Shown here: positions 5,431-55,316 of the stretch, piece after piece
Layout: the number at the start of each line of letters is the position of its first letter
Position numbering within the stretch: the first letter of the stretch is position 1
Origin: Schizophyllum amplum
Taxonomy: Eukaryota > Basidiomycota > Agaricomycetes > Agaricales > Schizophyllaceae
DNA length: 64,000 bases
NCBI GenBank assembly: GCA_007026445.1
Contig: VDMD01000049.1
Coordinates: forward strand, 124,001-188,000
Reading direction: 5' to 3'
The notes under the pieces: model-generated
What the model was told of the DNA's origin: nothing
Seen by the model: the letters and a program-made list of their open reading frames with translations, nothing else
Database searches by the model: none
Translations under genes and position numbers: made by a program

Positions 5431-5454
5431 CAACGTCACTGCTACTTCCCGCCC

Positions 5455-5725
5455 CCACTTCACGCCGCTTCGCCTCCACTTCACTTCACGGCTTCGCCCT
5501 AGCTTCACTTCACGGCTTCGCCTCCATTTCACTTCACGCCGCTTCGCCTCCATTTCACTTCACCCTTCTCCCTAGCTTCACTTCACGGCTTCGCCTCCAC
5601 TTCACTTCACGCCGCTTCGCCCTAGCTTCACTTCACGGCTTCGCCTCCACTTCGCCCTAGCTTCACTTCACGCTTCGCCTCCACTTCACGCCGTTCCGCC
5701 TCCACTTCACGCCGCTTCGAGCAAG
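5455..5725. repeat. Minisatellite of CTTCACTTCACGGCTTCGCC-like units
   Basis: Imperfect repeats of TTCACTTCACGGCTTCGCC alternate with CACTTCACGCCGCTTCGCC. The array abruptly ends the purine-rich tract and is pyrimidine-rich on the same strand. Confidence 0.85.
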
Positions 5726-23138: not shown

Positions 23139-23563
23139 TGTGGGGATCCCATGGTGGACTCCTCGCTCGCTCCCCGGAGTGAGGGCGGTGCTAGGTTAGG
23201 GGGGTATACCTTTTCTTTTGTCTCACGTATCTCTGGACCCGTATCATCTATGCGCCACCCCTTAGACGGGTGGCAGTATGTACTCGTGTTTGGTCGTAGT
23301 TTCCGCGCGGCGCCCTGACGGGCGCCGCGTGCTCAATATCATCATCTTTTCACTCCATCCAACAGCCTCTCGTCGCATACGCGCCGAGTCGGGCTAGCGA
23401 GGAGTAGGGATCTCTGAGAATATAAGACTAAGCACGGTATTCGGCTTGTCTGAGCGTGTCAGCCACGGAATTCGGGCAAAGCACGTTCTATTCTCAAGGA
23501 GAACTACTTTACGCCGCCCGCCTCCCGCTTGCAGGTGTCCCTCCGCGGTACGCAGTCGCCGCA
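23139..23563 (+). repeat. 5' LTR (425 bp)
   Basis: Begins TGTGGGGATCCC and ends CAGTCGCCGCA, i.e. TG...CA. A TATA-like AGAATATAAGAC lies near 23,417, likely the U3 promoter. An internal hairpin GCGGCGCCCTGACGGGCGCCGC lies near 23,308 (arms GGCGCCC/GGGCGCC). Confidence 0.95.
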
Positions 23564-26500: not shown

Positions 26501-29500
26501 GCCAAACCTGCGGAAGAATTCAGCGAGGCGGAAGGGGGAGGCGATATTCCTCCTCCGCTCCCTCGGCCGTACGAGCCTCCGAAGATCAAGGTGACGCCAC
26601 GGCGCAAAGCCCAGGACGCGTCCCGAGTCGGCACCTCAGTATTGAGCGTGCGCGGACGGCTGGGGTCGGACGCGAACGAAGAGATCGACCTACGCATTGA
26701 TTCCTGTGCCAGCATATCACTCATGGACGGAGGCCTGTACGACAAGCTAGTCAGCCCCCCGCCTATCACCAAGGGTGCTCCAATGCAACTGTGGCAGTTG
26801 ACGCAGAAGAGCGCACCCATTCGAGGAGTGGTACGCTTACCGGTGCTGGTATATGCCGACGACGGTTCGGTCATCGAGGCTAACGTCAATGCGCATGTGG
26901 TCGACGGTATGACAGTCCCGATTTTGCTAGGAGAAGATTTTCAGCAGGCCTACGAAGTTTCGGTCTCACGCACGTTGGAGAAAGGAACCTGCGTGACCTT
27001 TGGCGGAGCTGATCAGCATCCTATCACGGCCACGGGGGTGACCCGTACGAAGGACTTCGACAACGTCTCCAAGTCATACGTGGGGGAGCTGCCCGTTCCT
27101 CGCTTCGCGCAAAGGGGGCAGAATCGCCGGGTAAAGCGTCGGCGACGGGCGGTAAGGGAACGCGCGGAGGCAGCTGACTCCATGGTACGCGCCGTCCGGG
27201 ATGTACGTTTGGCGCCACACTCGGGAGCTAACGTGGAGGTGACCGGGCCTTTCGACGTCGAAGGCGAATGGATCGTCGAGAAACTCCTTTTGTCCTCGGA
27301 CGACGACAAATTCCTGGCCGTCCCGAACACGATCATCTCGTCCAGCTGCCCTAGGATTCCGCTAGCAAATCCCTCCGACTCCCCTCGCATGATCCGAAGA
27401 GGGGAGGTGATCGGGCGAGTACAGAGAGCCGACAAGTTCTTCGACAAACCCGGCACGGCAGAGGAGTTGAGCAAGTTCGAGAAGTATGCCTCGCTAGTGG
27501 GTGACCTATGCCGCGAGAGAGCGAAGAGGGAAGAGGACGTCGCCTCGGAGGAGGAAAGGAAGCCAACAGGAGGCGCGCGGCGATCTGGTCGAAGTCGCTC
27601 TTCTACACGGATGCCAGACGCGGCCAATTACGGCGCGTGGGCTGCTGGACAGCGGCCGGCGAAATCACGTTTCCATATGCCGGATGCGCAGGGTTACAGC
27701 TCCTGGGCGGACATAGCAGGGAAGCCGGAGGACAACAGCGAAACCATTGACGCGCAAGCCGACGGGCCAGGGGATAGCGAGTTCGGTCCCAAAACCGCCG
27801 AAATGCCTGATGTAGATCCAATTTCCAGCGCGCAGTTCAGAGACGCGCTGGACGTGGGAGCTCTGCCGGAATCCTTGAAGGAGCGGGCATGGCAGATGCT
27901 GGAGAAACGGAAGGGCGCCTTCGGGTTGGACGGCCGGTTGGGTAACTACCCCGCCAAAGCCACGATCCGCACGCAGGAGGACCAACCCCCAATAGCGGTC
28001 CCTATGCACGGCGCCTCTCCTGCGAAGAGAGCGGTCATCGACGAGCAGATCGACAAATGGTTCGCTCAAGGTGTTATCGAACCGTCTATCAGCCCTTGGA
28101 GCGCGCCAGTGGTGATCGCTTACCGCAACGGAAAACCGCGTTTCTGCGTCGACTATCGTAAGTTGAATGCGGTGACGGTGGCTGACGAATTCCCCATACC
28201 TCGCCAATCGGAAATTCTGGCTTCCCTCTCGGGCGCGCAGGTCCTTTCGTCGCTCGATGCTCTGTCAGGCTTCACTCAACTAGAGCTCGATCCAAAGGAC
28301 GTGGAGAAGACCGCCTTCCGGACACATCGAGGCTTGTATCAATTTCGACGGATGCCCTTTGGACTGAGGAACGGACCATCAATCTTCCAGAGGGTAATGC
28401 AGTCGGTCTTGGCCCCTTACCTTTGGATGTTCGCTCTGGTATATATCGACGACATCGTTGTTTACTCGAAGTCGTTCGAAGACCACCTGGAGCATCTCGA
28501 CAAGGTCCTAGAGGCGATCGAGCGAGCTGGGATCACTCTCTCGCCGTCGAAATGTCACCTGTTCTATGACTCTATTATCCTCCTAGGCCACAAAGTGTCG
28601 CGCTTGGGGCTATCCACGCACCTGGAGAAAGTCAAGGCCGTCTTGGAGCTAGCACGGCCGAAGTCGAAGTCCGACCTACAGGCTTTTCTGGGGATGACCG
28701 TATACTTCAGTTCGTTCATCCCCTATTATGCCGACGTCTGCTCACCCTTGCACCGCCTCCTGCGGAAGGACGTCCCTTGGGAATGGGGGGCCGAGGAAGA
28801 GTACGCCTTCCTACAGGCAAAGACGGCTCTGCAACGCGCTCCCGTCCTAGGGCACCCACAGGAAAAACAACCCTACCGGCTCTACACAGACGCGTCCGAC
28901 TATGCGCTTGGCTGTGCGTTGCAGCAAGTCCAGGCCATCAAGATCAAGGACTTGAAGGGGACAAAGCTCTACGAGAAGCTGCGGGACGCTCACTCCAGTG
29001 GCCGGCCACCGCCGAGGTTAGTCACGAAGCTGTCCGACAAAATCCAGGACGCCAAGGTGGCCGAGACTTGGGCGCCTGACTTCGAGGACACCGAGGTATA
29101 CGTGGAGCGGGTCATCGCATATTGGTCTCGGTCGTTTAAGGGCGCCGAGACTCGGTACAGCACGACGGAACGAGAGGCGCTCGCCGCAAAAGAAGCTCTG
29201 GTAAAATTTCAGCCGTACATCGAAGGGGAGCAAATTCTGCTGGTGACGGACCATAGTGCTCTGCAGTGGGCGCGCACTTACGAGAGCAGCAACCGGCGCC
29301 TCGCTTCCTGGGGCGCGGTCTTCTCCGCGTACGCACCAGGACTGGAAATCATCCACCGCCCCGGGCGCGTGCACTCCAACGTCGACCCCCTGAGCCGGAT
29401 TCCCCGCGAACCCCCTCCAGCGTGCTCTCCTCCTGACGGGAGGGGCCCGGCGCTATCGACCGACGAAGCCACCGCACAGCTGAAGGAGGAGATGGCGGCC

Positions 29501-31360
29501 CGCGCGCCAGCGCCACGGGCGTTCGCGACGGCGCATCTGGTCGACTGCCTCGAGACCGTGCCGGAGGCGTATGCGTCTCTCACACGGGCAGCAGCTAGCC
29601 GCCTAGCACGCGGGGGGGCAGCAGCAGGTGTGGAGCAGCAACAAGAAAGCGAGCAGGAGACAGGGCAGCAAGAGGAACACGCGCAAGGCGACAAGCTGGA
29701 GGGTAATGAGCGAGCGGAAAACGAGGCCGAAGAGGACTTCGTACCCTCTCAGAGGGAGATCGCAGATGAGGAGAAGGAAGACCGTCTCGACTTCACCCCC
29801 GCTCCCGGTTACGAAGGTGTCTTCAACCGGCCCCCAGCGATCCTCCTGCACCTTAGCCCGGAGGAGACAGAGGCATTTGTGACGGCGTATCAGGAGGACC
29901 CGTACTGGGCAACTCGTTGGAACGAAGCCTGCACGCACTCGTCAGCTTGGGTGCCAGGACGGCGGTTCTACAAGTCGGCGGACGGCCTTCTATTCTTTCT
30001 CGATGCAGACTATCTACCGCGCCTATGCGTGCCGAAGGCGAGGATCCCCCACATCTTGCAGATAGCGCATGAAGAGCCAATGGAAGGGGCTCATCCCGGG
30101 CCGGCAAAGCTGTGGTCGCGTCTACATTCGCGTTTCTACTGGCGACGAATGCGGCAGAGCGTAGAGGCGTTCTGTCGGTCGTGCGACATCTGCCAGAAGG
30201 TCAAGCTGGAGAACTTCACGCGCTACGGTACTCTCATACCAAACCCGATCCCCCTGGCGCCGTACGATTCCATTGCGATGGATTTCATCGTGGACCTGCC
30301 GGAGTCCAACGGGTTCACCGCCATCTTAGTTGTGGTCGACCGGCTGACAAAACACGCACAGTTCATTCCTACGCAGACGAAGGTCGACAAGAAGGGGGTT
30401 GCGGAGCTCTTTGTCAAGAACGTAGCGACGCGGTATGGCCTCCCATCGAGCATCATAGCGGACAGAGACCCTAGATGGGTTTCTGGGTTCTGGCAGGAAG
30501 TGGCGAGGGAACTCCAGACGAAGCTGATGCTCTCGTCGTCGCATCACCCTCAGCACGACGGGCAAACCGAGGTCCTCAACCGGCAACTCGAGACGACGCT
30601 GCGGGCGTACGTGGCTAGCGATACCAAAGGCTGGTCGTCAATCCTACACCTGCTCGAATTCGCGTATAATGCGGCGACTCACAACACGACTGGGGAAGCC
30701 CCTTTCAAGCTGCTTCTAGGGCGGGTTCCCCGCTCCCCCATGGACACGCTGTACCAAGCGGGAGAGTCACGGGACGAAGGGCGCCGGGACCGGGACCTCG
30801 AGACCTTCCTGCAGAAACTGAAGGTATCCAGGGAGGCGGCCCGGGACGCTATTGCGGCCGCCCAGGACGAACAGGCGAAGGCGTACAACAAAGGGCGTCG
30901 CCCGGCTCCGGACTTCAAGGAGGGCGACAAGGTGCTGGTCAATCCGCACTCGCTCCAATGGGTGGAAGCAAAGAACAAACCCAAACTCAAGCAGCGCTGG
31001 ATCGGCCCCTTCGAAGTCGCGCAGAAGATCAATCCAAACGTCTATCGGCTACGGATGAGCGATAAATACCCGGGAATCCCCGTCATTAACGTGCAACACT
31101 TGAAGAGGTACCGGGACGACTCTACGAAGGGCGCGGTGGAGCGAGCGACTCTGCCTGAGACGCGGGGCGATAAGATCGAATCGGATGAGTACGAAGTGGA
31201 GGAGATAATCGAGCATCGATGGGATAAGAGGAGGCGTCAGAGGATGTACCGGGTGCGGTGGGTAGGCTACGGGCCGTTCTACGACACCTGGCAGACGCAG
31301 AGGGACTTGCGCAACGCGCACAAGGTCCTCACGGAGTATAAGAAGAACAAGGGCCTCTAG
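23456..31360 (+). CDS. Gag-Pol polyprotein of the chromovirus
   Basis: One open frame of 2,634 codons. Its first codons lie in the LTR, so the real start is probably the first in-frame ATG behind it (23957). A Gag-like core spans about 25,230-25,830. A C-x2-C-x4-H-x4-C zinc knuckle starts at 26075. The protease has D-S-C-A at 26699 instead of the usual D-S/T-G, followed by an I-L-L-G-E-D-F motif near 26,920. Reverse transcriptase has Y-I-D-D at 28442-28453. RNase H follows (Y-T-D-A-S near 28,885; T-E-R-E-A and V-T-D-H-S downstream). Integrase has an HHCC finger (about 30,065-30,195) and a D, D, E triad at 30281, 30461 and 30569. A chromodomain closes the protein (31,186-31,350). Gag and Pol share a frame with no stop. 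The enzyme would copy element RNA and integrate it, guided by histone marks. Confidence 0.95.
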   Translation: MSATEFGQSTFYSQGELLYAARLPLAGVPPRYAVAAKWTLWDPASFLQFDSLSTYTIPAKRGSIGRGARGSPALPSTRATRPSARSASAPATERRPTSERRKSALAQNTSLLDTSPLSSISSHEPENAPLNSHRDDPPENEASSSQRVNPPEDAVDARDLKPSTDPLMSANASRAGSRADSRWPSRAPSRAASHAASRTEEDRVTREMLREPTQEPPSRGQYAREALELVRALYEDPRSDASPLLPEELHTLKGRVKYYGARDMLKIHEIVDRGRRKGQDSNHYAVKADLMRPLMETVRRMQLALNSLTSQCADRHSSYVVDPSGVFEKNLTDAASLEELQLAWLGLTNRLRHSQGCYNKYWNEALRASGDLDVDLLSQPPSTPSVYYRQIEETNSPRLQLRRALGALPSSRAVAWNHDPARDPERYVNAGLSDLVSISDGMADAFPAREPEDSPPLLFYEEGGRKRSLPARTTFDNPLGYTPMEDFDPWNATVGQGGGGDLPPRGSAPGPEPAGRTGGSTRQPKKAPRPSAYGMFASQYPEDDPPSDEENEWGLKDAKPVPPPRRGRAGGGGGGEPPEGAAAHALQPPYGTTMPSINPILKVESLPTWDGNKETALHYFFMIVELAGIGGYIPEALGVWLWSRFTSNSDIQHWYMTQGEERKAYLKRNYATFMETIQKYYLGPAWIEALGTEFRLQCFRDVKNSRESPSKFLYRRVMFSRALGFARANSIQEAKLVMSVAPRAWKLMLTFTTVRSTDELLDRVIEFEEDLVRAFYRDKKLEASLEAAGKPRSVWRPTPAAKAQAFDVELDPVQEDRAPADPVSLTMETTAQGDLLASAYAVAARRAGERPKSYPFPKADNIHSRGNKPPPGPCFACGSSNHWNKDCPHWDEYDKKRRAEGFSAELDEASELAYQMAYVMIVHQGFDRASLPSATSEDAEYKSQEVDEGGVEREVLISETRPFAVRVEEIEEEYWHNGECLPVDSLYDIEYIYDTYEEADRLENRGVTEEVNRVEAKPAEEFSEAEGGGDIPPPLPRPYEPPKIKVTPRRKAQDASRVGTSVLSVRGRLGSDANEEIDLRIDSCASISLMDGGLYDKLVSPPPITKGAPMQLWQLTQKSAPIRGVVRLPVLVYADDGSVIEANVNAHVVDGMTVPILLGEDFQQAYEVSVSRTLEKGTCVTFGGADQHPITATGVTRTKDFDNVSKSYVGELPVPRFAQRGQNRRVKRRRRAVRERAEAADSMVRAVRDVRLAPHSGANVEVTGPFDVEGEWIVEKLLLSSDDDKFLAVPNTIISSSCPRIPLANPSDSPRMIRRGEVIGRVQRADKFFDKPGTAEELSKFEKYASLVGDLCRERAKREEDVASEEERKPTGGARRSGRSRSSTRMPDAANYGAWAAGQRPAKSRFHMPDAQGYSSWADIAGKPEDNSETIDAQADGPGDSEFGPKTAEMPDVDPISSAQFRDALDVGALPESLKERAWQMLEKRKGAFGLDGRLGNYPAKATIRTQEDQPPIAVPMHGASPAKRAVIDEQIDKWFAQGVIEPSISPWSAPVVIAYRNGKPRFCVDYRKLNAVTVADEFPIPRQSEILASLSGAQVLSSLDALSGFTQLELDPKDVEKTAFRTHRGLYQFRRMPFGLRNGPSIFQRVMQSVLAPYLWMFALVYIDDIVVYSKSFEDHLEHLDKVLEAIERAGITLSPSKCHLFYDSIILLGHKVSRLGLSTHLEKVKAVLELARPKSKSDLQAFLGMTVYFSSFIPYYADVCSPLHRLLRKDVPWEWGAEEEYAFLQAKTALQRAPVLGHPQEKQPYRLYTDASDYALGCALQQVQAIKIKDLKGTKLYEKLRDAHSSGRPPPRLVTKLSDKIQDAKVAETWAPDFEDTEVYVERVIAYWSRSFKGAETRYSTTEREALAAKEALVKFQPYIEGEQILLVTDHSALQWARTYESSNRRLASWGAVFSAYAPGLEIIHRPGRVHSNVDPLSRIPREPPPACSPPDGRGPALSTDEATAQLKEEMAARAPAPRAFATAHLVDCLETVPEAYASLTRAAASRLARGGAAAGVEQQQESEQETGQQEEHAQGDKLEGNERAENEAEEDFVPSQREIADEEKEDRLDFTPAPGYEGVFNRPPAILLHLSPEETEAFVTAYQEDPYWATRWNEACTHSSAWVPGRRFYKSADGLLFFLDADYLPRLCVPKARIPHILQIAHEEPMEGAHPGPAKLWSRLHSRFYWRRMRQSVEAFCRSCDICQKVKLENFTRYGTLIPNPIPLAPYDSIAMDFIVDLPESNGFTAILVVVDRLTKHAQFIPTQTKVDKKGVAELFVKNVATRYGLPSSIIADRDPRWVSGFWQEVARELQTKLMLSSSHHPQHDGQTEVLNRQLETTLRAYVASDTKGWSSILHLLEFAYNAATHNTTGEAPFKLLLGRVPRSPMDTLYQAGESRDEGRRDRDLETFLQKLKVSREAARDAIAAAQDEQAKAYNKGRRPAPDFKEGDKVLVNPHSLQWVEAKNKPKLKQRWIGPFEVAQKINPNVYRLRMSDKYPGIPVINVQHLKRYRDDSTKGAVERATLPETRGDKIESDEYEVEEIIEHRWDKRRRQRMYRVRWVGYGPFYDTWQTQRDLRNAHKVLTEYKKNKGL
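23567..23583 (+). other. Candidate primer-binding site
   Basis: TGGACACTGTGGGATCC starts three bases after the 5' LTR. The TGG start fits pairing with a tRNA CCA end, but I could not match a specific tRNA. Confidence 0.4.
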
Positions 31361-38246: not shown

Positions 38247-41200
38247 TCACGTCCCCACCCTTCGTTTCCTCGTGTTGACTTTTGGCAGAGCTTCCCATTC
38301 GGCCGGTGTGCGTGGTTTTCGCGGGTGCTTGGCGTGAAATTCGTCGACCTTCTCCGCTGCGTTTGCTAGGCCCTCCACTGGTTCCCAGGTGCGTGCGGTT
38401 GGTCCGAACCCTACCCAATCAACGAAGTACTTGACCTTACGCTTGTCTTTCCGGCCGAACAATTTGCAGTCGAGGATTTCATTCACTTCCCATTGCTCCC
38501 ATCCTTCTTCGTCGATCTCTACTGGGGGTACCGCTTCTGGTGGCCGTTTTGCGAAGGTGTCTGCGGGGACTTCATGCAGGAGTGAGACATGGAAGACGTG
38601 GTGGAGGCGGGCCATGGTCTTGGGGAGTTTTAGGCGATACGCGTGAGTTCCAACTTTCTTTTCGATGGTGAATGGGCCTAATCGTTTGTAGTCGAGCTTC
38701 TTCGTGGGGCGTTTTGTCTTGACATTCCTCAGATCTAGCATCACCTTCGTTCCCTTGGTCCAGTTCGGGGTGCTGCCCCTCTTCAGGTCGGCGTGCTTCT
38801 TCATGGCGTCACTCGCTTTCCTTACTTCGTCTTTCAGGTGAGCTTGTAGTGCTTGCAGATCTTGGGCGACCTGGTTGACCTGGTGGTTTGGCACGTTGTC
38901 GAAGGCTACTGACAGCCGAGGGTGGTAGCCTTTGTTGGCGAAGAACGGCGTCATCCCAGTGCTCGAGTGAGTGTTGTTGTTGTATACAAACTCGGCGATG
39001 GGTAATTGCGGGACCCAGTCGTCTTGATCGTAGCTCACAAAAGCCCTCAGGTACTGTTCTAGTGACTGGTTTACCCGTTCGGTTTGCCCGTCGGTTTGCG
39101 GATGGTACGCCGTTGATAGGTTGGACTTTACTCCTAACGCGTCACACAGGGACTGCCAGAACTGGGATACGAAGAGGGCTCCCCTGTCGGAGACGATGTC
39201 AGCTGGTAAGCCATGTTTGCTGAAGACCTCCCGGATGAATAGGCGTGCGAAGTCGGGCGCTTTGTCGGTCGTATGGCATGGTATGAAGATGGCTTGTTTC
39301 GTTAGTCGGCATACCACTACTAACACCGCGTCGAAGCCCTCTGATAACGGTAGTTCGACGATGTGATCTATTGAGATCGACGACCACGCACGTTCGCCCA
39401 CTGGTAGGGGTTTCAAGTCGCCGTACGGTTTATGACGTGCCGCCTTTGAGCGTAGACAGTTTGAGCAGGTCACACAGTAATTATGTATGTCCTTCTTCAT
39501 GCCCGGCCAGTAGTACTCACGCATTACCCTCTTCAGCGTTCTCCTCACTCCGGGATGTCCGCTGAGGCGATGGTCGTGTCGGCTGCGTACAATGTCGACG
39601 CGCAAGTTTTCGTGGTCCGGCACGTATACTCGTCCATCTCTCATCAGTAAGTCTCTCCCCTCATCTACTGAGAATGGTCCCTCTGGTGTTAGTTCTGCCT
39701 CTTGCCGCCCTTTCTTGGCGTGATCGTCGAGCGGTGCCCTCCTTATGCGTTCGAGTTCGACTTCGACATCCAGCAGGTGCGCTGCATTCAAGCGTTCCGC
39801 CGGGATCGCTATCCTCTCGTTGAACTCTTGTGCTTTTGCCTTGAAGGACTCCTTAGGATATACGTCTGGGCGTCGTGTGAGTGCGTTGGGCTTTCCTCCT
39901 AGTCTCCCCGGTCGATAATGGATCACAAAGTCAAAGGTTGACAGATACTCGGACCAGCGCGCTTGGCGTCGACTGAGTTGCTTTGTTGTCGTGAAGTGCT
40001 GGAGATTGTTGTGGTCCGAGTATACCTCTATCCGATGGCGTGCTCCTTCGAGGTATGGTCTCCATATTTTGAATGATTCAACGATAGCTAATAGTTCTCG
40101 GTCATAGACATCGTAGTTGCACTCAGCAGGGGAGCAGGTACGGGCGTGAAACGCGATAGGGTGGATCTCCTTGTCTCCTGGATCGATCTGGGAGATGATG
40201 GCTGCTATTGCCCAGTCCGACGCGTCACTTTCGACGATGATGGGTAATTCTGGGTTGAAGTGTTGCAAGACGGGCGCCTCCGTGAACGCGGTCTTCAGTA
40301 GGTTGAACACGTCCTCGCATTGTTTGTCCCAGACCCACGGCTGATTCTTCTTCAACAGGCGCGTCAGCGGGTGGACAATCCCGGAATAATTGTCAATGAA
40401 TCGCCTATAGAAGTTGGCAAATCCTAGGAAAGCTTGTAGCTCCTTAATGTTTCGGGGCTGCGGCCATTCAAGGATAGTTTTGACCTTTCGTGGATCCATC
40501 ATCACGCCGTCGGGGGTAATAATCAGCCCTAGGTACTCGATTTCTCGAACATGGAAGGCACACTTCTCCGGTCTCGCGTGCAAGTCGTTCTCCATTAGCC
40601 GTTGCAGCACTCGTCGTACGTGTTCTTCGTGATCACTCTCGTTCTTTGAATAGATCAGAATGTCATCCAGGTAGACGACGACCGACACGTCCAACATATC
40701 GTGGAAAAGGTCGTTCACGAATCGTTGGAACGTTGACGGTGAGTTCGTCATTCCAAATGGCATAACCAGGTACTCAAATGATCCGTAGCGCGTTCGAAAA
40801 GCTGTTTTCCATTCATCGCCGTCTGCTATGCGGATGTTGTTATAGCCCCATCGGAGATCAATTTTCGAGTAGACTTTGGCGTCTCGGAGTCGGTCGACCA
40901 GGGTGCCTATCAGAGGTAAGGGATAGTGATTCTTCTTGGTGATCTTGTTGAGCCCCCTGTAGTCTACGCACAGTCTGAGCTTCCCGTCCTTTTTGGGCGC
41001 GAATAGGACTGGTGCTCCTGCCGACGATGTGGATGATCGAATGAATCCTTTCCCTAGCATTTCATCCAGGTATTCCTTCAGTGCTCCGAGTTCGGTCTCT
41101 GACATGCTATAGATCTTGCCGAAGGGTGGCGTTGTCCCCTCTTCCAACTCGATCTTGTGGTCGTGTTCTCGATGTGGCGGCAGCTCTTTTGCTGAGTCTT

Positions 41201-41252
41201 CGGAAAAGACTGACTTGAACACATGGTATTGTTCGGGTACGTGCTGTCTCAT
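38247..41252 (-). CDS. Pol (RT-RNase H-integrase-chromodomain), gag-less
   Basis: An intact frame of 1,001 codons. RT carries V-V-Y-L-D-D-I-L with YLDD at 40683-40672 (-). RNase H has V-E-S-D-A-S-D-W and Y-D-R-E-L-L-A. Integrase has an HHCC finger (H-x5-H ... C-x2-C), then S-I-D-H-I, V-S-D-R-G and T-D-G-Q-T-E as the D, D, E residues. A C-terminal chromodomain (Y-F-V-D-W-V-G-F ... W-E-P) follows. The protein begins where RT begins in other elements, so gag and protease are missing rather than frameshifted, at least within the visible sequence. With RT, RNase H and integrase open, loss of the 5' part seems recent, but the copy cannot be autonomous. Confidence 0.93.
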   Translation of the reverse strand: MRQHVPEQYHVFKSVFSEDSAKELPPHREHDHKIELEEGTTPPFGKIYSMSETELGALKEYLDEMLGKGFIRSSTSSAGAPVLFAPKKDGKLRLCVDYRGLNKITKKNHYPLPLIGTLVDRLRDAKVYSKIDLRWGYNNIRIADGDEWKTAFRTRYGSFEYLVMPFGMTNSPSTFQRFVNDLFHDMLDVSVVVYLDDILIYSKNESDHEEHVRRVLQRLMENDLHARPEKCAFHVREIEYLGLIITPDGVMMDPRKVKTILEWPQPRNIKELQAFLGFANFYRRFIDNYSGIVHPLTRLLKKNQPWVWDKQCEDVFNLLKTAFTEAPVLQHFNPELPIIVESDASDWAIAAIISQIDPGDKEIHPIAFHARTCSPAECNYDVYDRELLAIVESFKIWRPYLEGARHRIEVYSDHNNLQHFTTTKQLSRRQARWSEYLSTFDFVIHYRPGRLGGKPNALTRRPDVYPKESFKAKAQEFNERIAIPAERLNAAHLLDVEVELERIRRAPLDDHAKKGRQEAELTPEGPFSVDEGRDLLMRDGRVYVPDHENLRVDIVRSRHDHRLSGHPGVRRTLKRVMREYYWPGMKKDIHNYCVTCSNCLRSKAARHKPYGDLKPLPVGERAWSSISIDHIVELPLSEGFDAVLVVVCRLTKQAIFIPCHTTDKAPDFARLFIREVFSKHGLPADIVSDRGALFVSQFWQSLCDALGVKSNLSTAYHPQTDGQTERVNQSLEQYLRAFVSYDQDDWVPQLPIAEFVYNNNTHSSTGMTPFFANKGYHPRLSVAFDNVPNHQVNQVAQDLQALQAHLKDEVRKASDAMKKHADLKRGSTPNWTKGTKVMLDLRNVKTKRPTKKLDYKRLGPFTIEKKVGTHAYRLKLPKTMARLHHVFHVSLLHEVPADTFAKRPPEAVPPVEIDEEGWEQWEVNEILDCKLFGRKDKRKVKYFVDWVGFGPTARTWEPVEGLANAAEKVDEFHAKHPRKPRTPAEWEALPKVNTRKRRVGT

Positions 41253-41324
41253 GCTGTGGTCGAGTTGCTCCGGTGGTTCATTGCTCTTGCTGGTCTCCTC
41301 CCCCCCTTCTGGCGTTGGTTGTCC

Positions 41325-47746: not shown

Positions 47747-47953
47747 TCACCACTCCCGCAGCTGCCTCTTCTCCTGCAGGTGGGCTGCGATCATCCTCTT
47801 CAACTCGTCGATTTCCAACTCTAGCTCCATGTAGTTCTTGTTTGAACCATGAGAAGCTGGTGTTTGTGCAACGCACCGACTCACCGATAGCGACAGCCCT
47901 ATTTCCATTGTCTCCTTGAGCTTGCACTCGCTCCGGTTGCACTTTTCACACAT
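47747..47953 (-). CDS. MCxxCxxxxC small protein 1 (52 aa)
   Basis: Exon 1 is 47953-47885 (23 codons), exon 2 47836-47747, with a 48-nt intron GTGAGT...ACAAG in phase 0. Exon 1 begins M-C-E-K-C-N-R-S-E-C; exon 2 is a short Glu/Leu/Lys-rich amphipathic helix, the shortest in the family. The three cysteines fit a small metal site or disulphide/dimer site, but this is inference. No known domain. Start, intron position and cysteine spacing agree with seven neighbours, which is the main reason for calling so small a gene. Confidence 0.65.
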   Translation of the reverse strand: MCEKCNRSECKLKETMEIGLSLSVSRCVAQTPASHGSNKNYMELELEIDELKRMIAAHLQEKRQLREW

Positions 47954-48120
47954 GGGAATGAGAGCCGAGAGCAAGTTCTGTCGCACCTCCACCTTTACAT
48001 TTTATCTTTGGCCCAAGCTCTACCATCCGCAGCCTTTTGTCAGGCGCGTGCCAACGGCCTCTCTGTCCGCCCTTCACCTTCTACATGTTCTTCACTCTCC
48101 ACTCCCCTTGTCTTTGATTC

Positions 48121-48414
48121 TTACGCCTTCACGGTAAGCTGCCCTACGTTTCCCTCCTCATCCGTTGCAAAGACCTCTGGGCACAGCTCTTCCAGATTTT
48201 TCATTCTCAGGTCAAACATTGCCTTTTTCCGGTACTGCTCGTTCAGCGCGGCCAGCTCTGTTTTGTATTCCTCCCGCAGTTCATCATAGGTCTGGACCCC
48301 GTCAGGTTGTTTGCTCGTCCTTCCAATCATGCTGCCATTCACCTTGCCCGTGCGCAGCACTTCCGTCAGCAGCTCGGCACTTGTACAGTTTGCAAAGTTG
48401 CAGATGCGGCACAT
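48121..48414 (-). CDS. MCxxCxxxxC small protein 2 (80 aa)
   Basis: Exon 1 48414-48343 (24 codons), intron 51 nt (GTGAAT...TCCAG), exon 2 48291-48121. Exon 1 begins M-C-R-I-C-N-F-A-N-C and ends L-L-T-E-V-L-R-T-G-K, closely like small protein 7 (E-V-L-R-T-G-M). Exon 2 opens T-Y-D-E-L, as in small protein 8, and continues as a charged coiled-coil-like helix ending in an acidic, loosely folded tail. No signal peptide or membrane segment, so probably intracellular. Function unknown. Confidence 0.72.
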   Translation of the reverse strand: MCRICNFANCTSAELLTEVLRTGKVNGSMIGRTSKQPDGVQTYDELREEYKTELAALNEQYRKKAMFDLRMKNLEELCPEVFATDEEGNVGQLTVKA

Positions 48415-48961
48415 GATGAAAGATGCTATCGGCGTGGGATGCAACATGTTGTGTTCCAAAGGGGTTGCTGTCCCAATTAGGCTGTCATCACCCTGTTTCC
48501 CCATGGGGACGCATGCGACCTACGTGGCCGCCACTCTTGCCCGATTATCAATCTTCTCATGATCCGTGTCACATCTCCTTCTATATGGGGTCGCGGTCGC
48601 CGTTCACGATTCGTATGATCTCTCATTCCTCGTACATGGCTTTGACCGCCTTCCCCCCTGTTGCCCCTATATCTCTAGGTACACCATACGCTTATGTTGC
48701 AAAGGAGCTCGCCATTTTGTGTCATCTTTCAGTCGCCCGCAGCTAACACCCTTACGCTTCGGAGGCCGCCGTTGTCGACGCGGATCTGACCAGCGATGTG
48801 CTTTCCGAGAAGCAGGCAACGTGTGGTGAAGCATGCAGTCTATGGTCATGTTTTCTACTACTAGTATACGTGCACCACCTTTTCCATCGCTCCTTGGGGC
48901 CTGCTAATGATTAAATGCCGTTGCCCAGCCGGATTCGCACACTCACCGTATGTCTTACGTC
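48415..48961. other. Spacer, nothing recognised
   Basis: No gene, array or element seen between small protein 2 and the cysteine-less relative. Confidence 0.5.
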
Positions 48962-49238
48962 TCATTCAAACCCATATTCCGTGTGCGGTTCTCCTAACGT
49001 CACCTGCGACACCATCCTTCCTGCCGACTGCACATCCTCTTCAGCTGCCTCCAATTCCTTTATGAGGCGATCCCTCCGCTCTTTGCGCTCCTTTAGCAGG
49101 AGAAGCGCATATATGCGCCAGAACTGATACATGTCAGGCCGCCAGTGGCATGAGAGCTTGATCTCGACGTACAGCGGGATTCTCCATCTCCTTGCGCAGT
49201 GCCGTCGCATAGCGTTGGTCATCCTTCTTCGAGTTCAT
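48962..49238 (-). CDS. Small two-exon protein without the cysteine motif (75 aa)
   Basis: Exon 1 49238-49173 (22 codons), intron 49 nt (GTACGT...ATCAG with a CTGAC branch point), exon 2 49123-48962. Size, intron phase and a Lys/Glu-rich helical exon 2 match its neighbours, but exon 1 reads M-N-S-K-K-D-D-Q and has no cysteine. It is either a relative that lost the motif or a gene whose true first exon I missed. Function unknown. Confidence 0.5.
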
Positions 49239-49786
49239 TTTTTGGATCAGCGCTGCACGATTGCCGAACGAGGTGATGGTAAGATTCAAGGGGCTCGCCG
49301 GAACTTATTCGCAGTCATTTGCAATGGCCGATCGAAAGCTTCTTCCCGGTGTCCGCTTTGGCAGCATGACAACCGGGTTATGTCTCCTTTGGCCCTCAAT
49401 TCCCGGTCGGCAGCGGGACCACCACCACGTGCAATGTGCTCCGTCCGGGCTCATAATTGACCGCTATTAACAGATGCATCATTCGGTCGTGTCCGACAGC
49501 GCGTGCTGCAAACGCCGGTGACCGCCATCCGGCCTTGCTCTTGGGGGAGGCCAAGCTCACGGAGTGCGCGCGTCCTTTAAGAGCACCTCAGAACCATCAA
49601 GAGGCATTGGTTAGACTTTCGGAACAAGTATCTGTACCACGTTTATCACCCCCACCCCTTCGTTGACCATCCCGCCGTGAAAAGAGTCCCGCGCTTGCCG
49701 CATGTCGTCCAGTCCTGTGTTATCTGCATTCCGTGAGCTGCGGTGGTAGTATATTGCGTCCCGCGCACGCACCGTCTCCCTCCTTC
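49239..49786. other. Spacer, nothing recognised
   Basis: Only short frames without domain; no repeat array seen. Confidence 0.5.
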
Positions 49787-50088
49787 CTACGCTTCTTCTG
49801 TCTCAATCCAATCCGCGTTCCACTCGGCGATTGTCTTCCCCCGTGCTTCTGCTATGCTCCATGAGATCACGGCCTTCCGGACATGAGCCAGCCTGCTTTT
49901 TGCGATCTTCAACTCCTCTTCCGTGTCCTGTGCGTACTCCTCCAGCTCCAGCAGCTGTTTCACCTGCTCCATCTGAAGCGTGTGAAATTGGCGAAGCGCC
50001 CGATGTGCGAGATGTAACGTACAAAAGGCCTGTCTAGCGGGTATGATTTTGCCAGAGGGCAGTCGGGTTTGGCGCAAGGGATGCACAT
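49787..50088 (-). CDS. MCxxCxxxxC small protein 3 (83 aa)
   Basis: Exon 1 50088-50023 (22 codons) starts M-C-I-P-C-A-K-P-D-C. A 50-nt intron (GTACGT...TTCAG) in phase 0 leads to exon 2 49972-49787, which encodes an acidic helix (E-L-E-E-Y-A-Q-D-T-E-E-E) and a Trp-containing end. Its ATG is 138 bp from the ATG of small protein 4 on the other strand, so the two probably share a promoter region. Function unknown. Confidence 0.7.
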
Positions 50089-50226
50089 GGTTCTTCAGCT
50101 TGTCTCTTGAGTCAATGGCAGCTGTGGCAGAAGGCAACCTCTGGTGTGCGGTAAATCTTTGTTTACTCATTTCAGATGTGCGTGATCACGTCACGATCTC
50201 CCCCCTCAGGCCTTGTCCTGTACCTC

Positions 50227-50581
50227 ATGTGCACTATCTGCAGCCAGCCAGCATGCTCCCTCAACCAAGCCCTCTGCTTTATGATGCAGTCGAAAACGGT
50301 AGCGCGGTCTGTCTCTCTGCCTGTCGTATTCTTCTGACGGCCCCGTCCAGACTGCGTCAACTGTGGCCGAATCCATTATCGTCAAACGCGAACTGATCCG
50401 TCAGCTGGAGCGGGACCTCCAGGACGCGCGGCAGGCGCAGTACGACCTCGAGCGGCAGTTCTCCCACGTACTTTACTATGCACTGGATCACGATTGTGAA
50501 CATGCCAAACAGGCGGAAGAGCAGGAGGAGGAGGCGCAGCAGGAGGAGGAGGAAGACGATGAGGATGCTTCACACAAGTAA
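50227..50581 (+). CDS. MCxxCxxxxC small protein 4 (100 aa), opposite strand
   Basis: Exon 1 50227-50298 (24 codons) starts M-C-T-I-C-S-Q-P-A-C, intron 50299-50350 (GTAGCG...TCCAG), exon 2 50351-50581. Exon 2 encodes a long Leu/Arg/Gln/Glu coiled-coil helix (about residues 30-65), a further Cys, and a Glu/Asp-rich tail. It is the only member on the + strand, divergent from small protein 3. No known domain. Confidence 0.72.
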
Positions 50582-50831
50582 GCGCAAGCTGCCATGGCAC
50601 AGCGGCTCGCTGTTGGCACGGCGCAGCAGCTGGATGATGTACGGGGCTCATGATACGTGTTCGCTCTCCAAAGCCTTCTCAATATCTTCGCTTTGATGCC
50701 GCCCGCGCGTCCTGCGTCTGCTTCAACCATCTCTGCCCTGTCCCGGTTTTCACCTGCCGCGAAGCACCGGTCGTGTCCTGTCCGCCGTGAGCTACTTGCC
50801 ACGCCCCGTACGAATCGCGGACAACTCACCC

Positions 50832-51095
50832 TTAACCCGTCACCCTCTTCGCGTTCAGGTGCTGCCTGACCATCTTCTTGTAGTACTCGATTTCATCCCG
50901 CAAGTTGCTCTCCTCCTCCTCTCGCTTCTTCCTGATCGCGCGCATTTTCCGCCACTGTTCCTCTGCTTCCATGAACTCCTTGTTCTCTTGTCAGTTTCGG
51001 GCAGCGTTCGGACAGCAGCTTCGCACCCCCATAGTGACTTCTCGTCCTATAAACTGCGCCTGCTCGCACGATGATTCGTTGCACAGCTCGCACAT
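50832..51095 (-). CDS. MCxxCxxxxC small protein 5 (71 aa)
   Basis: Exon 1 51095-51027 (23 codons) starts M-C-E-L-C-N-E-S-S-C. The phase-compatible acceptor is AACAAG at 50986-50979... directly before exon 2 (50978-50832). Exon 2 is a dense Arg/Glu/Lys coiled-coil helix ending R-V-T-G. The acceptor lacks a strong pyrimidine tract, so this splice is less certain than in its neighbours. Function unknown. Confidence 0.62.
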
Positions 51096-51267
51096 GTTGT
51101 CCTTCGCTGTTGCCGTTGAGGTTTACTGCTCAGGTGCCGGAAGGTGGTGGTAAGAGACAAAGCCGGATATTTTGATCCCCTACTTATTCTCGTGAATGCT
51201 CATTTTACGTCATCTTCATTGGTGCGCCTTGAACCGCCTGCTACCGTCCAGGCATTCTGTTCGTCAC

Positions 51268-51564
51268 TCACACCGCGGCGTCCGGCTCGGCTTTCCGCCC
51301 GTGGTCGCTCTCGTTCCTCATCCGGTGCTCCTTGATGCACTTCTTGTACCGCTCAATCCTGATCTCCTCCTCTCCGTTCTCCATTTCTAGTCTTGTTCTC
51401 GCGGCACGTATTTCCTCGAGCGCGTGCACGGCATACACGTAGTTCTTTTCGGCCGATTAGCGTGCGGCCCGCCGCGTATGATGCTTGGAACTCACGTGGG
51501 TCGCTGACGGTCTCTGCAGGGTCTCTCGCAGCTTGCATTCGCCGTTGTTGCATTGGAAGCACAT
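51268..51564 (-). CDS. MCxxCxxxxC small protein 6 (81 aa)
   Basis: Exon 1 51564-51496 (23 codons) starts M-C-F-Q-C-N-N-G-E-C-K-L-R-E-T; small protein 1 has the same E-C-K-L-x-E-T. The intron is GTGAGT...AAAAG (51 nt) with a GCTAAT branch point. Exon 2 51444-51268 encodes an Arg/Glu-rich helix and a short polar tail. Function unknown. Confidence 0.68.
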
Positions 51565-51692
51565 TTTTGTGATCAAAAGCCGAAGACGGTGGGCCGCGCT
51601 GGGGTTGATTTCCGACCAGCGATGATGGCCTAAGACAAGCTGTGTGTTCCATCAAAATAAGCAGTCTCGGGCATGCGCCCCGAATGCTTTCT

Positions 51693-53352
51693 CTAGTCTA
51701 TGCATTCTTCCTCGTCGTCCGAGCCACACACGTGTAACATGAGTTCCACCTCCGCGTCGCTGTCTTCCCCCCCTTCGTCCCAGTTTTCCCCGCTCCAGAA
51801 GCCCTCGCTGTCGTCGGCCTGATTTGCCTCCGCGTTCTTTTGTTCAGCGTCGTTCAGCATGAGAATGTCGGGGAAGACCTCCATCAGGCTCTTTACTCGC
51901 ACAGCCAGCCGGGCCTGCTGTTTGTACTGCTCTTGTAGCGCTTTGTGCTCCGCTCTGTACTCATTCCAGATCTCAGCGTATGTCTGCCTCTGGTTAGCTC
52001 GCTTTATCATCGGCCTTGCATCACTGCTGCTTACCATCCCTGTCCGGAGCACTTCGTTCAGCAGGTCGTAAGGAAAGGCACGGGTTTCGAAAACCCGCCG
52101 GGTCACGGGTAGGATCAGGTCACGGGTACGGGTACGGGTCGCACTCGGCCGACCCGCCAACCCGCCGCAACCCGTGGGAAATCCGCGAAAAATCCGCCGA
52201 TAAAAGCTCAAGTTTGAGTCTGTGGACGTCGAATTCGCCAGAGGGTTATCTCATTGAAATCACAGGCATTGACGCGCAAAAAATACGCTCAAAAGCGGCT
52301 ACGATTTTGCCAGCGTCAATGCGCGCGTCGGCGGCGGAGCTCGGCAACCCGGTCCGATGTGCCGCCCGCCCGCGTTCAACGTGTCTTGTTCTTCAACCAC
52401 GACCACCCCGACCTCGCGGCTGCCCCCAGGTCGCCCCCCTCCTCTCTCTCGACTTCGCGCACCTCAACGATTGAATAATTCAAGCTTTTCAGCGGTTGAT
52501 TGCGGCACAACAAGCTGATTGAGGCGGATGACGCCGCTGAAACGGGCAGGCCTGCGCAGACGCGCCGCAGGTGCGTAGCTGCGCCTTACAGGGATTCTCT
52601 TACTGACAACCTCACGCTACAGCCCTTCAGCGCGAGTGGTGCGAGCGTGCAACGCCACCGTTGCGCCAGCAAAGGCCCCCCACTCACGCCTCTCCGGCCG
52701 TCAATGACGACGCGCGGAGCGCCCGACGTGCATGTCGCACATCCGGCGCTTATCTGCAAGGCGCCCAACCCCCCGCTCACCCTCCTTCCTTCCCCGCCTC
52801 GCACTAGCGCGCAGCCCGCCCTTGACCAAGAGCCAACCCGCTTGAGGACTCACCGCACCGGGACTTCGCGGTGCGGCTCTTGATCAAGGCCCGAGCCTCT
52901 TAGCACGTTCTACAAGGGCGGGGAGGCGTACGCGTACGCTGCGCCGGCGCCGGCCGCCAGCGAACTGCAGTGGCGCGATCGGGCAGGGTGGTCTTTCGTG
53001 CCGCATCGCTCCTGCCTCCACCTTGAGCCCTCGCGGCTTCGAGTGGCCTCCCCTCGCGTCTCTGTTTATGTAGTACATAGAGACACGTACATAGACAATA
53101 TACATGATTTAGATAGTTCAGAAGCAGCGCAAGGCGCTGACATCACCCTCAATGCACCCAAACGTCTCCCGCACGCTCTGAGCCACAACCCGTGATGTAC
53201 CCGCGGGTAACCCGTGTACCCGACCCGTGCCGCGGGTACGGGTTTTGCACGGGTACGGGTACGGGTCAGCCTCAGAAACCCGGGGGTAGACCCGTGCCTT
53301 TCCTTAGCAGGTCGCGCATGCCGCAGTCCTGGCTTTCGCAGATGTGGCACAT
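51693..53352 (-). pseudogene. MCxxCxxxxC small protein 7, interrupted by a transposon
   Basis: Exon 1 is split into 53352-53307 and 52060-52035 by an element at 52069-53306 with its 8-bp target duplication. Taking the element and one duplicate out on paper gives exactly 24 codons starting M-C-H-I-C-E-S-Q-D-C and ending E-V-L-R-T-G-M. An intron (52034-51984, GTAAGC...GGCAG) follows, then exon 2 (51983-51693): T-Y-A-E-I, a Gln/Lys/Glu helix and a strongly acidic tail. Exon 2 remains open, so the disruption is probably recent. Unless the element is removed or spliced out, the protein is lost. Confidence 0.75.
52069..53306. mobile_element. Non-autonomous hAT-like element (1,238 bp)
   Basis: It begins TAAGGAAAGGCACGGGT and ends with the exact reverse complement, flanked by the 8-bp duplication GCAGGTCG (52061-52068 and 53307-53314). 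An 8-bp duplication is typical of hAT transposases. Both ends carry repeated ACGGGT/ACCCGT words (around 52,080-52,145 and 53,195-53,295). The inside (52,200-53,190) has no transposase frame, so it must have moved with a transposase from elsewhere. Confidence 0.88.
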
Positions 53353-53507
53353 GGGGATGATCCGTTATGGTTGCAAGAAGCAAGATGCAGTCTTTCCTAA
53401 TGGGCGTATAGTATCCGTTTCAAAACTCACACCGGTCATCGCACCCCGTATGCCATTTCATTCCCAACGGCGCGCACTCCGCGCTTGCTGTTCAGTTAAC
53501 CCCCCGC

Positions 53508-53907
53508 TTACGGATCGATGCACTCGTCCTCCGCCCACCTGTTCTGGTCTCTATCTATCCCTGTGGTCTCCCCTTCGATTTCGTCCTCCTCGCTGTCAAC
53601 ATACACGCCTTCGGCACGCATCGCGTCCTCCACTCTCTCCTCCGTGTCGTCGCTGTTCTCGAACATGTCCGTGTATATGTCGCCCCAGCGCGTCCGCGTC
53701 TTGTTGAGCATCACTATCCTGGCGGACGCTCTCTTCCACCGTTCTTCTTCTTCTTCGCATGCCCGCAGCAGCTCATCGTATGTCTGCGCCCATTGTCGTC
53801 AGCCAAGCGGTGCTTTTGGGCGGTCCGACACTTACCATTCCCAACATTATCACCTTCTTCAGCAGCTCGTACACCGGACAAGTGTTGGATATGCATGTTC
53901 TGCACAT
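53508..53907 (-). CDS. MCxxCxxxxC small protein 8 (115 aa)
   Basis: Exon 1 53907-53836 (24 codons) starts M-C-R-T-C-I-S-N-T-C and ends V-I-M-L-G-M. A 52-nt intron (GTAAGT...GCGCAG) is followed by exon 2 53783-53508. Exon 2 opens T-Y-D-E-L-L-R and then forms a basic/acidic helix and a long Asp/Glu-rich tail ending D-E-C-I-D-P; small protein 7 ends with the similar E-E-C-I-D. Largest of the set; no known domain. Clean splice signals and the shared ends with number 7 make this one of the best-supported members. Confidence 0.75.
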
Positions 53908-54393: not shown

Positions 54394-55316
54394 ATGCCCA
54401 AACGCCAGGCCTCTCCATCGGCACCGGTTTCCACCAAGCGCCGGGGTCTTTCAGCGTCCCTTGTTCGTGTGCCATCCCGTCGCTCTCCGTCTCTCCCCGT
54501 CGACCACCCGGATCAGCCCATTCACCCGATCTTTCAAGAAATCGAGGGCGCGCTGCAGGAGGTATCCCTCCGTGACGGCGCCGAACGCCTGCAGGGTTCC
54601 CGGTCGACTTCCCATGACGACTTTCCACTATCCGCGATCTATGCAGGTGCGTGTCCTCTCCACACGCAGTGACTTCCATGTTCACACCTGACCAGCCAAC
54701 GTTCCTAAAGCCGGGCCTCATTCGTCCTCGCCGTTATTCACCCAGCGCCGTCGTTCTTCGCCCTCGGCCTCGGTCGCGTCGGTCTCGCTGTTACGGGCTG
54801 TTCAGCAATCTCCGTGCAGCATTGTCTCTTCGGACGGCTCCGACAGCTCCCTTTGCGAACCGTTGGCGCCCCTCCAGCACGTTGATGTTCCGTTTCCCGG
54901 TGGCGCCCATTCTGACGGCGAGTCTGACTCTGATGATGACACATCCTTTTCTGTTGCCATCGCGCGGTCGTTTGACACTCTGGATGCTCAAGCGAGGGCT
55001 GTCGCCGCACTGCGCGAGGCGATGATTGAAGAAGAAGACATGGTCCGCGAACTTCGCAAGTCGCTTCACGAGGAGCAGGAAAGGTGCAAGGCTCTTGAGG
55101 CGTCCTGCGCGCAGCTCAAGGGTGATCTTGATCGTGCCCTGCATGCAGTCAGTTCGAATTCACGGTATCCCTTGTCTTTTACTAACGGCCACCCTTCAGC
55201 ACGGAGAGCTTCAGGAGCGGACTGCGGGTGTCGTGGCCCTTGTCCAAAGCCTTGAACATCAGATCGCAGCCATCGTGCAAACCGGTGCAGGCGGTCTGCC
55301 CGGCAGTACTTTGTAG
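54394..55316 (+). CDS. Coiled-coil protein, three exons (268 aa)
   Basis: Exons 54394-54646, 54711-55147, 55200-55316; introns GTGCGT...TAAAG (64 nt, CTGAC branch) and GTCAGT...TTCAG (52 nt). All junctions agree in phase. Residues 1-80 are Lys/Arg/Ser/Pro-rich with a start that could act as a nuclear signal (P-K-R). Residues 90-165 are Ser/Asp-rich and acidic. Residues about 170-250 are a Glu/Leu/Ala coiled coil. No enzyme motif. Its layout resembles the gene at 37.1-38.1 kb, but I see no clear sequence match. The stop is only 26 bp before the foldback element, so its 3' UTR and polyadenylation site now lie inside the transposon. Confidence 0.75.

Follow-up and report, generated by a model that had tools for sequence, protein, structure and literature searches.

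A family of small cysteine-headed, two-exon genes in ordered cassettes of Schizophyllum amplum

Why should eight tiny genes with mutually unlike bodies all begin with the same three cysteines? The question is raised by a cluster in the genome of Schizophyllum amplum, a wood-decay mushroom, within a 64,000-nucleotide stretch that was analysed as a whole and is called the window (G000:C254:124001-188000; C254 is the contig label, and other contigs are labelled likewise). An original prediction, made from the letters of the window, had described eight two-exon genes with an M-C-x2-C-x4-C start and had proposed a constant cysteine head joined to fast-diverging bodies. To judge from sequence comparison and structure prediction, the genes belong to a multigene family, so far seen in S. 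amplum only, whose proteins are mostly helical.

Eight genes of six types

All eight predicted starts were located as matches to ATG-TGY-N6-TGY-N12-TGY, with head ATGs at 47953, 48414, 50088, 51095, 51564, 53352 and 53907 on the minus strand and at 50227 on the plus strand, in agreement with the predicted strands. In 200 first-order Markov sequences derived from the window, chance heads numbered 0.04 per window on average and 1 at most, versus the 8 observed. The two-exon layout held for seven genes, with an exon 1 of 22–24 codons and a phase-0 GT..AG intron of 48–52 nt, and failed for g7, which is split by an insert. The models also contain the predicted T-Y-D-E/T-Y-A-E motif in three bodies and E-C-I-D in two. 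Among the seven intact models, the introns of g1 and g2 are free of stops and have a length that is a multiple of 3, so that their splicing rests on homology (for g2, also on the NCBI model). According to PMC8893723, RNA-seq of developmental stages has been used in this species, there under the name Auriculariopsis ampla. The features are listed below with the types and classes described afterwards; P numbers denote retrieved NCBI proteins.

47747..47953, minus strand: g1, type c' (class II), 52 aa with a shortened body; exon 1 47953-47885, intron 47884-47837 (48 nt), exon 2 47836-47747
48121..48414, minus strand: g2, type b' (class I), 80 aa, the same as P0004; exon 1 48414-48343, intron 48342-48292 (51 nt), exon 2 48291-48121
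49787..50088, minus strand: g3, type e (class II), 83 aa, the same as P0003, divergent partner of g4; exon 1 50088-50023, intron 50022-49973 (50 nt), exon 2 49972-49787
50089..50226, no strand: common upstream region of g3 and g4 between their ATGs, 138 bp
50227..50581, plus strand: g4, type f (class I), 100 aa with an acidic tail, the same as P0002; exon 1 50227-50298, intron 50299-50350 (52 nt), exon 2 50351-50581
50832..51095, minus strand: g5, type d (class II), 71 aa, body inside the fused P0001; exon 1 51095-51027, intron 51026-50979 (48 nt), exon 2 50978-50832
51268..51564, minus strand: g6, type c (class II), 81 aa, forming the start of P0001; exon 1 51564-51496, intron 51495-51445 (51 nt), exon 2 51444-51268
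51693..53352, minus strand: g7, type b (class I), split by an insert; exon 1 in two parts (53352-53307, 52068-52035), intron 52034-51984, exon 2 51983-51693
52069..53306, minus strand: hAT-like non-autonomous insert of 1,238 bp that splits g7 exon 1, with 17-bp inverted ends TAAGGAAAGGCACGGGT and an 8-bp target duplication CGACCTGC
53508..53907, minus strand: g8, type a (class I), 115 aa with an acidic tail, the same as P0005; exon 1 53907-53836, intron 53835-53784 (52 nt), exon 2 53783-53508

The copies of g7 on C30 and C291 carry an empty site without the insert, which we take to be a hAT-like element from its 8-bp duplication and inverted ends. NCBI proteins P0002-P0005, recorded under S. 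amplum, are identical, letter for letter, to four of the seven intact window models, while P0001 is a single model fusing g6 with the g5 body. Across the family, 9 of the 13 NCBI models retrieved (P0002-P0006, P0009-P0011, P0013) are identical to our own; P0007 and P0008 have the same start and then differ. Neighbouring genes are fused in P0001 and P0012 (2 of 13), a gene set that automatic annotation thus handles badly.

The family was analysed through 37 distinct complete models, a manual selection that excludes broken and near-identical copies and comprises 5 models of type a, 6 of b, 5 of c, 4 of d, 9 of e and 8 of f. All 37 have two exons, with a phase-0 intron and an exon 1 of 22–24 codons, and encode proteins of 52–128 aa. 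The cysteine head, with its triad at residues 2, 5 and 10, is likewise present in 37 of 37, a figure that is partly built in because the pattern itself was used to find the heads. All six types were recovered as clades by FastTree, with support of 1.00 for a, 0.46 for b, 0.90 for c, 0.81 for d, 0.87 for e and 0.83 for f. Class I (a, b, f) separates from class II (c, d, e) at the midpoint root, whose two branches have support of 0.83 and 0.99. Full-length hhalign probabilities are 93–97% within and 4–84% between classes. Class I proteins are acidic in 19 of 19 models, with an isoelectric point (pI) of 4.1–5.3, and the 18 class II models have a pI of 4.4–9.8. The eight window genes are mutually unlike because they represent all six types, with b and c occurring twice.

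This division changes the picture of fast-diverging bodies, which was not supported: the bodies are of six types, each conserved between diverged cassettes at a ratio of nonsynonymous to synonymous substitution rates (dN/dS) below 1. All 105 within-type pairs were compared, and 88 had a finite dS and a usable whole-gene ratio; dN/dS was below 1 in 88 of these 88. For the 28 pairs with dS up to 1.25, the median was 0.39 (range 0.20–0.96), with the lowest values in types b' and d (0.20) and e (0.22) and the highest in one e pair. The suggested comparison of the exons gave similar medians at dS up to 1.25, 0.43 for exon 1 and 0.45 for exon 2. With dS close to 1 or higher in many pairs, the types and cassettes appear to be old.

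Distribution, cassettes and chromosome ends

The head pattern has 167 matches in the 49.65-Mb assembly, versus 68 for the reversed control; the matches were listed through three sub-patterns (68 + 42 + 57). Clusters account for 105 of the 167, on 11 contigs (C30, C164, C223, C242, C243, C249, C254, C275, C291, C300 and C301), and the 62 heads outside clusters are about equal to the control level. A comparable gene model was found for none of 20 sampled non-cluster heads, 6 of which gave no model and 14 of which scored 3.0 or less; most cluster members score above 4 in the same modelling. A real family with copies elsewhere in the genome is supported by the 105 clustered heads.

The order a-b-c-d-(f/e) is preserved in three diverged blocks, B1, B2 and B4. 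Copies of B1 lie in the window and on C30 and C291. B2 is complete on C164, C243 and C301; on C249, C223 and C254 it is either without a or truncated where the contig stops. In B4, on C275, a type g gene lies between d and f/e, and a second, partly broken B4-like set on the same contig is without c and e. Block B3, on C291, is partly rearranged to a-b-d-b-b'-c', followed by three f/e units in a row. The f/e pair has thus been multiplied on its own as a divergent unit. The two genes lie head to head in 8 of 8 distinct scored pairs, with 114–216 bp between the ATGs. A ninth f/e pair, in B2, includes f2b, which keeps its body and starts MSTCAV, having lost two of the three head cysteines. Distances between f bodies correlate with those between e bodies (Mantel r 0.80; 8 pairs, including the f2b pair and leaving out the C243 pair with its unmodelled f), and an r this high arises in 3 of 40,320 relabellings, counting the observed one.

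On 9 of the 11 contigs, a family head is no more than 3 kb from a contig end. On C275, TTAGGG repeats start 2.7 kb past the last family head, which makes this cluster, at least, subtelomeric. The assembly has only five places with four tandem TTAGGG units, and no TTAGGG run was found at the remaining fetched ends of family contigs, where the assembled sequence stops inside the array or close to it. Near-identical copies occur on several contigs, in long alignments mostly of 95–99.6% identity, and may be haplotypes, contig-end redundancy or recent duplication.

Searches that began from other parts of the genes brought in further genes. A body-first search with type a found nine bodies, with a head upstream in 9 of 9. 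When eight cluster stretches were searched in translation with the full set of bodies and heads, f2b, with its damaged head, and degenerate pieces emerged; comparison of masked blocks added type g and gene h. As far as the sequences tell, the head is constant across most of types a–f, yet can be lost. The further genes are:

L032 1070-1456, plus strand; L042 about 5287-5640, minus strand; L043 about 414-760, minus strand: type g, a small acidic coiled-coil-like cassette gene
48962..49238, minus strand: k9, candidate ninth two-exon gene with no Cys in exon 1; exon 1 49238-49173 (22 codons), intron 49172-49124, exon 2 49123-48962, splice sites placed by eye
54394..55255, plus strand: gene h, a coiled-coil-like neighbour divergent from g8, exon limits provisional

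The gene k9 was spotted by eye, and it is matched only in the three copies of block B1. Those to gene h were found only on C30, C220, C243, C254 and C291, which indicates that a second gene family shares the blocks.

An upstream element like CTTGCTTCCTACCACCAT, at about -20 to -75, is present in most of 35 family upstream regions, with an expectation-maximization log-likelihood of 193.7 (30 starts) versus 63.6–72.2 for six shuffles (15 starts each). Genome-wide it has 119 matches, versus 3 for the reversed control. Twelve other places were read; the exact motif is present in 11 (L085 has one mismatch), and the adjoining sequence is varied. A family-specific promoter was therefore rejected, and the element, being genome-wide and beside varied sequence, looks like a general start-region element.

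Elsewhere in the window, long open reading frames at 23432-31360 (plus strand) and 38247-41324 (minus strand) resemble Ty3/Gypsy-type polyproteins by eye. Positions 1-5600 hold long low-complexity open reading frames, Arg/Glu/Gly-rich on one strand and Ser/Pro/Arg-rich on the other, and 16261-16947 (minus strand) has a match below threshold to Peptidase_C54 (Atg4; E 4.5e-5). It was the single Pfam match obtained from ten other window open reading frames. The assembly contains two STE3 pheromone-receptor clusters, on G000:C241 and G000:C269, which suggests that both B mating-type haplotypes are present. Linkage of the family to mating type was rejected: Homeobox_KN and STE3 matches lie on C90, C244, C1, C241 and C269, none of which is a family contig.

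A proposed paired assembly and its rivals

The predicted helical second exons agree with structure prediction and composition. AlphaFold2 gave type e (five NCBI proteins) a mean predicted local distance difference test score (pLDDT) of 84.3, with helices at residues 11-15, 20-65 and 70-79, and type a (four proteins) a mean of 57.9, with helices at 11-21, 26-66 and 71-81 and a low-confidence acidic tail. Common to both models are non-helical residues 1-10, a short helix and a long helix. The helix part contains 1.0% Pro, 2.2% Gly and 39% charged residues.

That no named family has this layout, as first supposed, is consistent with Pfam, PDB and protein searches, which gave no named family or outside relative. 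Searches of 5.8 billion proteins matched only S. amplum; S. commune DNA lay outside these searches, so that absence there is not implied. A search focused on type a retrieved all five distinct type a loci, which indicates good sensitivity for that type, and the negative is limited by the fact that tiny genes are often unannotated. No Pfam family scored above the cut-off for seven window proteins, and 33 members had matches at E up to 0.1 to 22 families, of which the strongest, Med30 (E 0.0029, in one of the 33), was taken for chance. A Foldseek search with the type e model gave no match below E 5.9. In the PDB profile search, the best 60 of 97 matches up to E 10 were mostly coiled-coil or helical proteins without a convincing relative (top E 0.042), and a search with the heads gave one match at chance level (E 3.1). 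Among the papers listed for the species and the gene layout, none was recognised as dealing with the family, and the locus-tag prefix was found in no paper.

We tentatively favour, with chances somewhat short of even, the reading that the family encodes coiled coils built as hetero-oligomers, in which an acidic subunit joins a partner and a Cys triad that binds metal forms the cap. Each protein would consist of one long helix, encoded by exon 2, and an N-terminal cap, encoded by exon 1. Class I would pair with class II as coiled coils, a step held with moderate confidence and most securely for f with e; the two-class split, the acidity of class I and the co-diverging head-to-head f/e genes all point towards such pairing. 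The Cys triad may bind a metal, most likely zinc, at the helix end, although this step is less secure than the pairing. The fixed position of the first Cys, directly after the initiator Met, points to participation of the free N-terminus in metal binding; the Cys2 amino group would perhaps be a fourth ligand once that Met is removed, an arrangement that would account for the position. Our best guess at a role, a weak one, is that the assembly would form an adaptor or recognition complex specific to the lineage and replenished by duplications close to chromosome ends.

Several observations weigh against this proposal. With respect to constraint, no usable whole-gene ratio was obtained for 17 of the 105 pairs, and by exon dN/dS reaches or exceeds 1 in four pairs (b exon 1, 1.07; three e exon 2, 1.01–1.15). 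Recent near-identical copies vary at 29 nonsynonymous and 12 synonymous codons, a ratio of nonsynonymous to synonymous polymorphism (pN/pS) of 0.63, with 13 of the 29 lying within one gene whose C30 copy is locally frame-shifted. The head is incomplete in several genes: f2b is without two of its three cysteines in the four B2 copies read (L034, L036, L039, L040), type g has C-x2-C only or no head, and k9 lacks the head cysteines. The separation into classes draws mostly on the head together with the exon junction, since hhalign probabilities for the bodies alone reach 27% at most, and class II is not basic throughout, type e having a pI of 4.4–9.8. The type a structure is weak by its mean pLDDT, the head is poorly predicted in both models, and heptad-range periodicity reaches p<0.05 in only 12 of the 37 models. 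The second f on C275 has no recognisable adjacent e, and co-divergence of f and e could also be the outcome of tight linkage alone.

A more elaborate version of the proposal is unlikely to hold in full. It would be a modular heteromeric recognition system of three acidic and three partner subunits with Cys-metal caps, whose cognate pairs are encoded by cassettes that duplicate. The f/e unit would multiply and diverge as a matched pair complete in itself, each chromosome end or haplotype would have private dimers, and the whole would amount to a new fungal system of identity or selfish pairs with no relation to known mating, HET or NLR genes.

Similarly improbable is the alternative that f/e are cognate recognition or selfish two-gene units (poison/antidote or allorecognition) that diverge as pairs, with a–d as older relatives. 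It would account for the separate multiplication of f/e (the three pairs in a row in B3), their divergent arrangement in 8 of 8 scored pairs and their co-divergence, and it fits the confinement of matches to S. amplum in the protein searches and the turnover of copies near contig ends, once near a telomere. However, selection within types is mostly purifying, types a–d share the architecture yet are not paired like f/e, the homeodomain and STE3 mating genes are not on family contigs, and pair-specific toxicity or drive is not visible from sequence.

Two explanations of the head alone are a little less probable again. Methionine aminopeptidases remove a Met that precedes Cys, and exposure of Cys2 could create a degradation or oxygen/nitric oxide signal, with oxidation marking the protein for turnover. 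Residue 2 is a Cys in each of the 37 models, as it is in the 9 of 9 body-first type a matches, but the former count is partly built into the head pattern, and the signal leaves the equally constant Cys5 and Cys10 unexplained. The head might instead be a lipid anchor, with S-acylated cysteines tethering small coiled-coil adaptors to membranes, an idea to which we give the same low standing. N-terminal Cys clusters are often acylated, and the charged helix contains hardly any Pro or Gly; however, the strict C-x2-C-x4-C spacing would exceed what acylation needs, and many heads have charged residues between their cysteines.

Chance open reading frames or pseudogenes multiplied with subtelomeric DNA could explain the broken copies (g7 with its insert, the C30 copy of g5, the second C275 d at its junction and an f relic on C30) and the many near-identical copies, possibly haplotypes or contig-end redundancy, but are very improbable and largely refuted by the excess of heads over the control, dN/dS below 1, the conserved intron position, the start-region element upstream of most of 35 members and the 9 of 13 identical NCBI models.

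Returning to the paired coiled coils, if class I and class II do pair, the family would supply about nine natural coiled-coil pairs, diverged and linked, in which the evolution of pairing specificity could be studied. If f/e are recognition or selfish pairs, they would represent a new system in a genus that is a model of fungal mating.

Comparison with known systems

Type I and type II keratins are helical proteins of an acidic and an other-charge class; they are obligate pairing partners and have clustered genes. The present family likewise has acidic and other-charge classes of clustered helical-protein genes, with pairing here proposed, but it has no sequence relation to keratins beyond generic coiled coils, and its type e is not basic throughout.

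The head recalls the CCHC zinc knuckle and Zn2Cys6, short Cys-based metal motifs that also start C-x2-C, with the metal here putative. Unlike the zinc knuckle (C-x2-C-x4-H-x4-C), it has Cys at the third ligand position and no fixed fourth ligand in the 37 models; unlike Zn2Cys6 (six Cys, in C-x2-C-x6-C halves), it has three fixed Cys and x4 spacing. Both families were absent from the Pfam matches of the 33 members. The family N-termini begin M-C, and the twin CX3C of small TIM chaperones was not seen by eye in the six type alignments.

In genome setting, the nearest likeness is to the TLO genes of Candida albicans, described in PMC9713401 as a lineage-specific family near chromosome ends with a conserved part, architectural groups and a MED2 domain. 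The S. amplum family, apparently lineage-specific too, likewise has a conserved part and architectural groups, and a telomere was seen beside only one of its clusters. However, MED2 was not among the Pfam matches of the 33 members, and here six types stand in ordered cassettes.

In layout, the nearest likeness is to basidiomycete HD1/HD2, which PMC8545103 describes as divergently transcribed genes of two related classes whose products heterodimerise. The f/e genes are likewise a divergent pair from two related classes (8 of 8 distinct pairs), with a heterodimer here only proposed. Unlike HD1/HD2, no homeobox family was among the 22 Pfam families matched by the 33 members at E up to 0.1, and the genome's Homeobox_KN (PF05920) matches lie on C90 and C244, off the family contigs. 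HD proteins are also larger and are not known to have the C-x2-C-x4-C head. The family therefore resembles HD1/HD2 in layout and TLO in genome setting and belongs to neither, because their defining domains were tested and not found. Lineage-specific families near chromosome ends are already a known kind; to our knowledge, no other combines six paralogue types whose order is preserved with two classes and a co-diverging pair unit.

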